From: Hydrogenophaga sp.
Lineage (GTDB): Bacteria > Pseudomonadota > Gammaproteobacteria > Burkholderiales > Burkholderiaceae_C
Reading direction: 5' to 3'
NCBI RefSeq assembly: GCF_018780075.1
Contig: NZ_JADMKB010000027.1
Span: 1 to 64,000, forward strand
Length of the DNA stretch: 64,000 nt
Shown piece after piece: positions 62,339 through 64,000 of this stretch (its first letter is position 1; each line of letters starts with the position of its first letter). Below the pieces are notes generated by a model. It made no database searches. It saw nothing but the letters and a program-made list of their open reading frames with translations, and was not told where the DNA came from. The position numbers and the translations under genes are program-made.

Positions 62339-63187
62339 ATGGCACAACTCATCGGTGGCCTGGCCACATCGCACATCCCCGCCATCGGCGGCGCCATCCA
62401 CAAGGGCCTGCAGAACGAGCCTTACTGGAAACCCTTCTTCGACGGCTTCCCGCCGATCCACCAGTGGCTGGGCAAGGTCAAGCCCGACGTGGTGGTGGTG
62501 TTCTACAACGACCACGGCCTGAACTTCTTCCTCGACAAGATGCCGACGTTTGCGGTGGGTGCCGCCGCGACCTACAGCAACGCCGACGAGGGTTGGGGCA
62601 TTCCCACACTGCCGCCGATCCCGGGTTGCCCGGAACTCTCGTGGCACCTGATCAATGAGCTGATCGCCAAGGAATTCGACATCGTGACCTGCCAGGAGAT
62701 GCTGGTGGACCACGCCTGCACGCTGCCGTTCAAGCTGTTCTGGCCCGAGCACGCCGTGGCGCCGGTGCAGATCGTGCCGATCGACATCAACACGGTGCAG
62801 TTCCCGTTGCCCACGGCCAAGCGGGTCTACAAGCTGGGCAAGGCGGTGGGCGAGGCGATTCAGAGCTGGCAGAGCGACAAGCGCGTGGCGGTGATGGCCA
62901 CGGGCGGTCTGTCGCACCAGCTGGATGGCGAGCGGGCGGGTTTCATCAACAAGAAGTTCGACCTGCAGTTCCTGGACAGCATGGAAACGAACCCCGAGTG
63001 GGCGACGCAGTTCAGCGATCTGGAACTGGTGGAGAAGGCGGGCACGCAGGGCGTGGAGTTGTTGATGTGGCTGGCGATGCGGGCGGCGCTGACGGCCGGT
63101 GGTTCGGGGGTGCGCAAGGTGCACAGCAATTACCACATCCCGATTTCGAACACCGCTACCGGGGTGTTGGCGCTGGAGGCGGTCTGA
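62339..63187 (+). CDS. LigB-type class III extradiol dioxygenase (second copy)
   Basis: A 282-residue enzyme with the same iron ligands as PmdB: His12 in LATSHIPAIG, His59 in VFYNDHGLNFF and Glu in GTQGVELLMW. The catalytic His lies in TGGLSHQLDG. Overall it is colinear with PmdB but clearly diverged (EMLVDHACTLPFKLFWPEHA versus [20 protein letters not shown]), which changes the substrate pocket. It is controlled by its own LysR and is followed by a strong terminator, so it forms a self-contained two-gene unit. No downstream pathway genes accompany it. Confidence 0.9.
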   Translation: MAQLIGGLATSHIPAIGGAIHKGLQNEPYWKPFFDGFPPIHQWLGKVKPDVVVVFYNDHGLNFFLDKMPTFAVGAAATYSNADEGWGIPTLPPIPGCPELSWHLINELIAKEFDIVTCQEMLVDHACTLPFKLFWPEHAVAPVQIVPIDINTVQFPLPTAKRVYKLGKAVGEAIQSWQSDKRVAVMATGGLSHQLDGERAGFINKKFDLQFLDSMETNPEWATQFSDLELVEKAGTQGVELLMWLAMRAALTAGGSGVRKVHSNYHIPISNTATGVLALEAV

Positions 63188-63216
63188 TCTGTTTTTGGGT
63201 TTTTGGTGGATGAAGG

Positions 63217-63239
63217 AGGGAGCCTTTGGCTCCCTTTTT
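63217..63239 (+). terminator. Rho-independent terminator after second dioxygenase
   Basis: AGGGAGCC-ttt-GGCTCCCT followed by TTTT, 29 bp past the stop codon at 63187. Confidence 0.88.
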
Positions 63240-63258
63240 CGTTCTGGCTTTTGTGCGG

Positions 63259-63360
63259 GTGCCGGGAGCGTCCGGTATCCGACTCCGCGAATGTCCCCCG
63301 GCGGCGGGAGGCCGCCTCCTCCTTTATTTCGCTGCGTCGGACACCGAACGCTCCCGGCAC
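63259..63360 (-). repeat. Structured element E1: 24-bp arms around a conserved core
   Basis: Arms GTGCCGGGAGCGTCCGGTATCCGA (63259-63282) and its imperfect complement (63337-63360) match at 22 of 24 positions. Read on the minus strand both mismatches become G-U pairs. The 54-nt core, on that strand, starts CGCAGCGAAATAAAGGAGGA, holds an inner hairpin GGCGGC-ctccc-GCCGCC and ends CCGGGGGACATTCGCGGAG. The core is shared with element E2 in the opposite orientation; the arms are not. Confidence 0.75.
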
Positions 63361-63406
63361 CGGCCGCAACGTTGGTGTGCTCACGCAGGCGTACCTTTCC
63401 GCAGGC

Positions 63407-63514
63407 GTCTCGCAGAGGTGGGGCGCACTGCGCAGCGAAGTAAAGGAGGAGGGTCCGGCCGCAGGCCGGGGCCGGGGGACATGAGCGGAGCAGTGCGCCC
63501 CACCTCTGCGAGAC
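63407..63514 (+). repeat. Structured element E2: same core, different perfect 24-bp arms
   Basis: Arms GTCTCGCAGAGGTGGGGCGCACTG (63407-63430) and CAGTGCGCCCCACCTCTGCGAGAC (63491-63514) are perfect complements, 24 of 24. The 60-nt core starts CGCAGCGAAGTAAAGGAGGA, has an inner hairpin CCGGCC-gca-GGCCGG and ends CCGGGGGACATGAGCGGAG. Between E1 and E2 (63361-63406) a 9-bp direct repeat CGCAGGCGT occurs at 63384 and 63400. Confidence 0.75.
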
Positions 63515-63540
63515 ACACCACAAAACCCGGCGCACCAAAG

Positions 63541-63565
63541 AAAAACGGGAGCCGAAGGCTCCCGT
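63541..63565 (-). terminator. Rho-independent terminator of rpoD
   Basis: On the minus strand ACGGGAGCC-ttc-GGCTCCCGT is followed by a T-run (AAAAA at 63541-63545 on the plus strand). It lies 27 bp past the rpoD stop. Confidence 0.88.
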
Positions 63566-63591
63566 GGATCGAAACAAAACGCCGAAACGGC

Positions 63592-64000
63592 TTACATCGT
63601 GTCGATGAAGCTGCGCAGCTTGTCCGAGCGGCTCGGGTGCTTGAGCTTGCGCACCGCCTTGCTCTCGATCTGACGGATGCGCTCGCGCGTCACGTCGAAC
63701 TGCTTGCCCACTTCTTCCAGCGTGTGGTCGGTGGACATCTCGATGCCGAAGCGCATGCGCAGCACCTTGGCTTCGCGCGGCGTGAGGCTGTCGAGGATTT
63801 CCTTGACCACTTCGCGCAGGCCGGCCTGCATCGCGGCCTCGATGGGCGCGGTGTTGGCCTGGTCTTCGATGAAGTCGCCCAGGTGCGAATCGTCGTCGTC
63901 GCCGATGGGCGTTTCCATCGAGATCGGCTCTTTCGCGATCTTCATGATCTTGCGGATCTTGTCTTCCGGCATCTCCATCTTCTCGGCCAGGATGGACGCA
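63592..64000 (-). CDS. rpoD: RNA polymerase sigma-70 factor RpoD, C-terminal part (runs off window)
   Basis: The last 136 residues of the primary sigma factor. Visible are the end of region 3 ([20 protein letters not shown]), then region 4.1 ([15 protein letters not shown]) and region 4.2 helix-turn-helix ([20 protein letters not shown]) that reads the -35 hexamer, ending [15 protein letters not shown]. The frame stays open to the window edge beyond the track start at 63978 ([14 protein letters not shown]). This is the housekeeping sigma factor. Confidence 0.97.

Follow-up and report, generated by a model that had tools for sequence, protein, structure and literature searches.

The attC sites of integron cassettes consist of a folded single strand with a variable stem and conserved extra-helical parts. 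Extragenic REPIN and BIME elements are built as inverted doublet units whose palindromic halves carry compensatory changes; folding as single-stranded DNA has been proposed for them, and they persist over long times in their lineages (PMC3116915, PMC2817692). Longer inverted repeats, moderately abundant and of an extragenic class, are also known from the TIR families of the RAYT-like 'TIRtrons' (PMC3733652), and MITEs are short, non-autonomous elements with inverted ends and sharp boundaries. Traits of all these systems come together in a pair of hairpins located beside rpoD in the 64,000 nucleotides of Hydrogenophaga sp. contig NZ_JADMKB010000027.1 analysed here (positions 1 to 64,000, hereafter the window). 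The reading that we prefer, with a probability of roughly 0.6, is that this pair represents a single copy of a mobile DNA element of ~300 bp, REPIN-like and non-autonomous, which would be recognised as folded single-stranded DNA by an enzyme acting in trans. The features of the locus are the following:

63208..63244, plus strand: intrinsic terminator of the dioxygenase gene (62339-63187), outside the doublet
63259..63360, minus strand: half-element E1, with B-like arms (TCGGATACC...), covariance-model score 102.5 bits; made up of a 24-25 bp outer stem, a 5-bp helix P2, a purine-rich internal loop and an inner hairpin
63259..63282, minus strand: right (outer) arm of E1, complement of 63337-63360
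63283..63336, minus strand: core of E1, CGCAGCGAAATAAAGGAGGA, inner hairpin, CGGGGGACATTCGCGGAG
63337..63360, minus strand: left (inner) arm of E1, pairs with 63259-63282
63361..63406, no strand: linker between the two inner arms of E1 and E2, the position of the cargo gene in doublets L324, L131 and L100
63407..63514, plus strand: half-element E2, with A-like arms (CAGTGCGCC...) and an architecture like that of E1, 94.8 bits
63407..63430, plus strand: left (inner) arm of E2, pairs with 63491-63514
63431..63490, plus strand: core of E2, CGCAGCGAAGTAAAGGAGGA, inner hairpin with a C-GCA-G loop, CGGGGGACATGAGCGGAG
63491..63514, plus strand: right (outer) arm of E2, complement of 63407-63430
63545..63565, minus strand: intrinsic terminator of rpoD (which ends at 63592), outside the doublet

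The original prediction had placed here two elements of 102 and 108 bp with common core halves and complementary arms, and coordinates, lengths, cores and arms were all present in the sequence. The arms, given there as 24 bp, paired without mismatch over 24 positions in E2 and over 25 positions in E1, including two G-T wobbles, both of which fall, as had been claimed, on the core-sense strand, the one that gives the core in the same sense as E2. The opposite orientation of E1 and E2 also held, whereas their description as separate objects did not: they are one object, the two halves of a single divergent doublet with a short linker, which is the usual arrangement in the family. No further copy had been noticed in the window, and the covariance model likewise found only E1 and E2, plus an extra row that corresponds to a weak antisense match to E2. 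The doublet sits between two good terminators, one per flanking gene, in the order stop codon, terminator, element. These terminators (63218-63239 and 63542-63563) are 91% inverted repeats of each other.

E1 and E2 belong to a family, which was described with a covariance model trained on 40 copies. In the genome of the window, the core pattern gave 17 matches with at most two mismatches and its reversed control gave none, and the covariance model detected 21 half-elements. The family fold comprises an outer stem of ~24 bp and a 5-bp helix beside a CGCA/GGAG step; an internal loop, RUMAAGGRGGA/CGGRGGACA, and an inner hairpin complete it. Of the pair cells 92% were paired, and both sides had changed in 30 of the 34 pairs; the structure was picked from the same sequences, which partly builds in the paired percentage but not the double changes. 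The covariation score reached 0.830, compared with 0.206 ± 0.012 in shuffled and at most 0.15 in slid controls, three helices covarying strongly. Positions 41 and 71 covaried non-canonically, with A41/G71 in 145 copies, G41/A71 in 10 and exceptions in 3. Stems covary and arms differ from locus to locus. The proposal of a conserved core on changing stems was borne out across family copies and at orthologous sites. As for the two arm pairs of the window, formerly regarded as unrelated, arms do vary, yet they fall into two loose family-wide classes, A (CAGAGCRCC...) and B (TCGGCYACC...), E2 being A-like and E1 B-like, and the two classes normally meet within a doublet, one per half. Half-elements occur mostly in divergent pairs, with inner arms ~40 bp apart in Hydrogenophaga and farther apart in other genera. 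A third sub-type (CGCAGTGAGG...CACGAACGGAG) has shorter arms and appears at conserved sites as half-elements standing alone (L019, L055, L001, L323, L334, L346, L347). Elsewhere the outer arm was seen in extra tandem copies just outside the element, as if duplicated (L118, L120, L121, L126; G023, G070), and one element (L339, 3927-4057) carries a tandem duplication of its own inner hairpin arm and 3' core.

On the core-sense strand, the arms of 172 well-aligned copies comprised 3017 Watson-Crick, 326 G-T, 16 A-C and 81 other pairs, counts that come from copies related by descent and are not independent. Since neither a cruciform nor replication-linked mutation would favour G-T over A-C, the core-sense single strand is the selected form. 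A replication-strand bias was rejected as the cause of the wobbles, because the ratio was alike on both chromosome strands (170:11 in plus-lying and 156:5 in minus-lying elements). These data sustain the earlier contention that selection acts on one strand and not on a DNA-level inverted repeat. The core-sense strand was also the more stable one in 178 of 181 copies under an RNA energy model and in all 181 under a DNA model.

The elements showed a preference for the 3' ends of genes. Their junctions were convergent in 48 cases, codirectional in 59 and divergent in 4, against 23, 120 and 29 among background gene pairs, which represents an enrichment of convergent junctions with a p of 2e-8. Most sites in three genomes (G219, G218 and G213) have an orthologous element-bearing site in another of the species compared, and few sites are common to different genera. 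At the rpoD junction one or both halves are kept in about 16 species, E1 being sometimes retained next to a replaced E2; G221 and G256 have the halves in opposite orders, G008 lacks E2 and G255 lacks E1. At 13 more orthologous sites the species differ in entire arms, which nevertheless remain paired. The doublet therefore persists at orthologous junctions while its arms are replaced, moving over time yet keeping its place over shorter spans. The stems, once described as interchangeable, are so inasmuch as orthologous sites of different species may have entire arms, or one doublet half, replaced without loss of pairing, although a loose class consensus persists.

Recent multiplication was evident in one genome (G214), which contains 55 half-elements. 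Its 17 aligned doublets were ~88 to 95% alike, except three more divergent ones, and had common ends (TTTCTCCGG... and ...GAGCGAAA), sharp boundaries and unrelated flanks; no obvious target-site duplication was noticed when the flanks of these 17 doublets were read by eye. One junction was filled in G214, G235, G215 and G245, half filled in G211, reduced to a stub in G210 and lacking the element in G238 and several outgroups. Gain at the level of the group is the simplest reading and loss accounts for the half and the stub, while presence and absence may be read either way. Multiplication and presence/absence bear out the second of the two guesses of the original prediction, a small mobile element. 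Two near-identical doublets occupy two junctions in Luteimonas, and the segment between them was rejected as an autonomous element, for it carries ordinary genes (EamA, alcohol dehydrogenase, YajQ and DUF1415). Movement is rare, since most of the sites in Hydrogenophaga have orthologues in other species, and the long maintenance of doublets might reflect a host function.

In the mechanism that we propose for such a mobile doublet, the unit consists of two ~100-nt hairpins, of types A and B, that diverge from a short linker. When the strands part during replication, the enzyme in trans would recognise the core-sense strand in its folded single-stranded form, by way of two conserved internal loops (CGCA/GGAG and RUMAAGGRGGA/CGGRGGACA), and would copy or move the doublet as a whole. 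Stems would drift because they need only be paired, elements would settle beyond gene ends because selection removes insertions elsewhere, and a gene might occasionally end up between both hairpins. No transposase was found between or beside the copies inspected, including the long pairs of G223 and G220 and nine single elements of G214, where ordinary genes were encountered. A reverse transcriptase was rejected as mobiliser, RVT_1 being absent from most of the carriers tested, including G214, G219, G220, G223 and G181.

Genes were indeed located between the hairpins of some doublets. The linker of L324 (H. pseudoflava) encodes an Mrr type IV restriction enzyme, related to phage defence (Pfam 5e-39, PADLOC mREase_IV 1e-111), that of L131 (G197) a Fic protein (Pfam 2.7e-14, PADLOC SoFic 9e-35) and that of L100 (Xylophilus) a DUF2306 protein. 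Two other linkers, of 0.94 kb (L321) and 0.76 kb (L367), were devoid of recognised genes, the 116-aa ORF of L321 having no match in Pfam or PADLOC. Both belong to the proC/ubiA junction, which in two species holds long linkers of differing content. The G+C content of the L324 and L321 linkers was 55-56%. In G218 and G213, other sequence lies beside the hairpins of the L324 site, and since these comparisons fall at contig ends we only infer cargo at that site. Cargo may be part of the biology of the element; the three clear cases do not show that cargo moves along with it or that defence genes are preferred. More tentatively, and we hold this for a possible but rather unlikely extension, the family could represent a separate class of mobile DNA with paired strand-specific single-stranded hairpin ends, free stems, a fixed purine-rich core, an undescribed enzyme and gene cargo that includes defence genes, whose empty forms would be the short doublets.

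The range of the element is wide and patchy. Elements occurred in 36 of 39 sampled genomes of Hydrogenophaga (0 to 55 copies), a genus label that rests on the rpoD locus of G219 being identical to that of H. pseudoflava CZa25-1. Under strict filters, which make the figure a lower bound, at least 7 of 199 Burkholderiales genomes matched, from four genera and three families. A pattern scan gave, among the matches listed for named genomes, Hydrogenophaga, Rhodoferax, Variovorax, Ramlibacter, Acidovorax and Xylophilus, and also Rubrivivax, Ideonella, Sulfurisoma and Luteimonas (one). Carriage by phages was rejected, as a single IMG/VR contig bore an element (L285, 5468-5573), close to its end and probably of host origin.

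The original prediction had pointed to an RNA stem, a reading that is not supported in that form. A structured RNA, whose core-sense hairpin would work either at mRNA 3' ends or as a small RNA, agrees with the very strong covariation, the preference of the RNA folding model for the sense strand, the purine-rich internal loops with their non-canonical A-G swap and the location of the elements just past stop codons; the wobble asymmetry fits RNA and single-stranded DNA equally. The apical loops point to DNA instead. They were C-GNA-G in 121 of 177 cases, GNRA in 4 and TTCG in none, those of G023 and G070, from one genus elsewhere, being not all GNA, and a GNA loop on a closing G-C pair makes for a DNA mini-hairpin of extraordinary stability (PMC4686876). 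In the STAXI motif the type of loop served the same argument with the opposite outcome (PMC2864571). The C-GNA-G apex, rather than GNRA or UUCG, thus favours single-stranded DNA over RNA as the acting form, an argument weakened by the common descent of the loops. Besides, no promoter-like site lies within 63150-63620, at this locus, as at its orthologues, an intrinsic terminator stands between the doublet and each of the two genes, the antisense half comes first for each flanking gene, and doublets multiply as whole units. No Rfam family was matched at the gathering threshold, and a relaxed search returned implausible miRNA-type matches far below the cut-offs. We deem a structured RNA unlikely. 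Far less probable is that arms became complementary through mutation alone, by templated quasi-palindrome correction without selection on folding. Adjacent bases do change jointly in both arms at orthologous sites (S4), tandem arm copies lie outside some elements, and such correction may contribute to the origin of new arms; as sole cause, however, it predicts equal G-T and A-C leftovers, which is contradicted by the observed 326:16, and it leaves the conserved loops and the A/G swap unexplained.

Another possibility is that doublets, whatever their origin, replace terminators between converging genes as a bidirectional transcription barrier and are kept for that. Besides the excess of convergent junctions and the long-lasting sites and doublet form, an intrinsic terminator preceded the element at 10 of 52 convergent 3' ends versus 16 of 28 element-free ends (p 0.001), a statistic inflated by non-independent sites, one gene pair being counted in several species, and obtained with a home-made gene finder and terminator scan. 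However, the window locus already has its two good terminators, the hairpins are not followed by a T-run and the strand-specific core is left unexplained, so that the barrier reading as a whole seems quite unlikely to us, although a role as 3' barrier is possible for some of the copies. A true REP/REPIN moved by the Y1 (RAYT-like) transposase that these genomes encode in single copy would fit the REPIN-like organisation and the single Y1_Tnp gene found in all ten further Hydrogenophaga genomes tested. Yet Y1_Tnp is absent from G181 (100% complete) and G197 (99%), with at least 19 copies, and present in the non-carriers G009 and G237; only one of 12 Y1 stretches searched held an element, ~5 kb away on the contig, and in four of six Hydrogenophaga-group genomes read the Y1 gene precedes a gltB-like gene and has GGGGTCAGA-type motifs close by. 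Distribution and gene neighbourhood thus led us to reject RAYT as the mobiliser and make that alternative highly improbable. Y1_Tnp, flanked on either side by GGGGTCAGA-type motifs (L083, L085-L088), looks like a separate, ordinary RAYT-type system.

Should our preferred reading of a trans-mobilised doublet be true, strand-specific selection on paired hairpins in the absence of a Y1 transposase would imply a second machinery for a REPIN-like life. The family is common enough to test this, with 17 to 28 copies in closed genomes, 55 in one, and junctions both filled and empty. With cargo of the Mrr type, these junctions would be worth searching for small defence genes. In annotation work, the family accounts for the frequent long inverted repeats after genes of Comamonadaceae, including the one beside rpoD.

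No published description of the element was found in the open-access literature, the sequence of Burkholderiales-1 not having been compared; this candidate motif from the same order is listed as a doubtful RNA with no Rfam number (PMC2864571, Weinberg 2010). With attC sites the element shares a folded single strand with a variable stem and conserved extra-helical parts, but its halves are inverted instead of single and its core sequence is different. Unlike in MITEs, each end is a structured hairpin; no target-site duplication was noticed by eye in the flanks of the 17 G214 doublets, nor a parent transposon at the copies inspected. In TIRtrons the TIRs flank tyrosine transposase genes (PMC3733652), of which none was found here. 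The comparison with REPINs and BIMEs goes furthest (PMC3116915, PMC2817692). Half-elements are ~100 nt long versus 20-60 for REPs, drifting 24-bp arms surround conserved internal loops where REPs usually have a conserved stem, copies number 0-55 instead of hundreds (usually >100), the GTAG/CGTC tag was not seen among the invariant columns of alignment A1, some carriers lack a cognate Y1 transposase, and doublets can enclose genes. The claim that the element is not a REP is thus right as to membership, for which size, stem, copy number and a flanked cognate RAYT all differ, and too narrow as to organisation: palindromic, repeated and extragenic, 3' of genes, in an inverted doublet unit, the element works like a REPIN, yet by its size and its relation to RAYT it stands outside that class.
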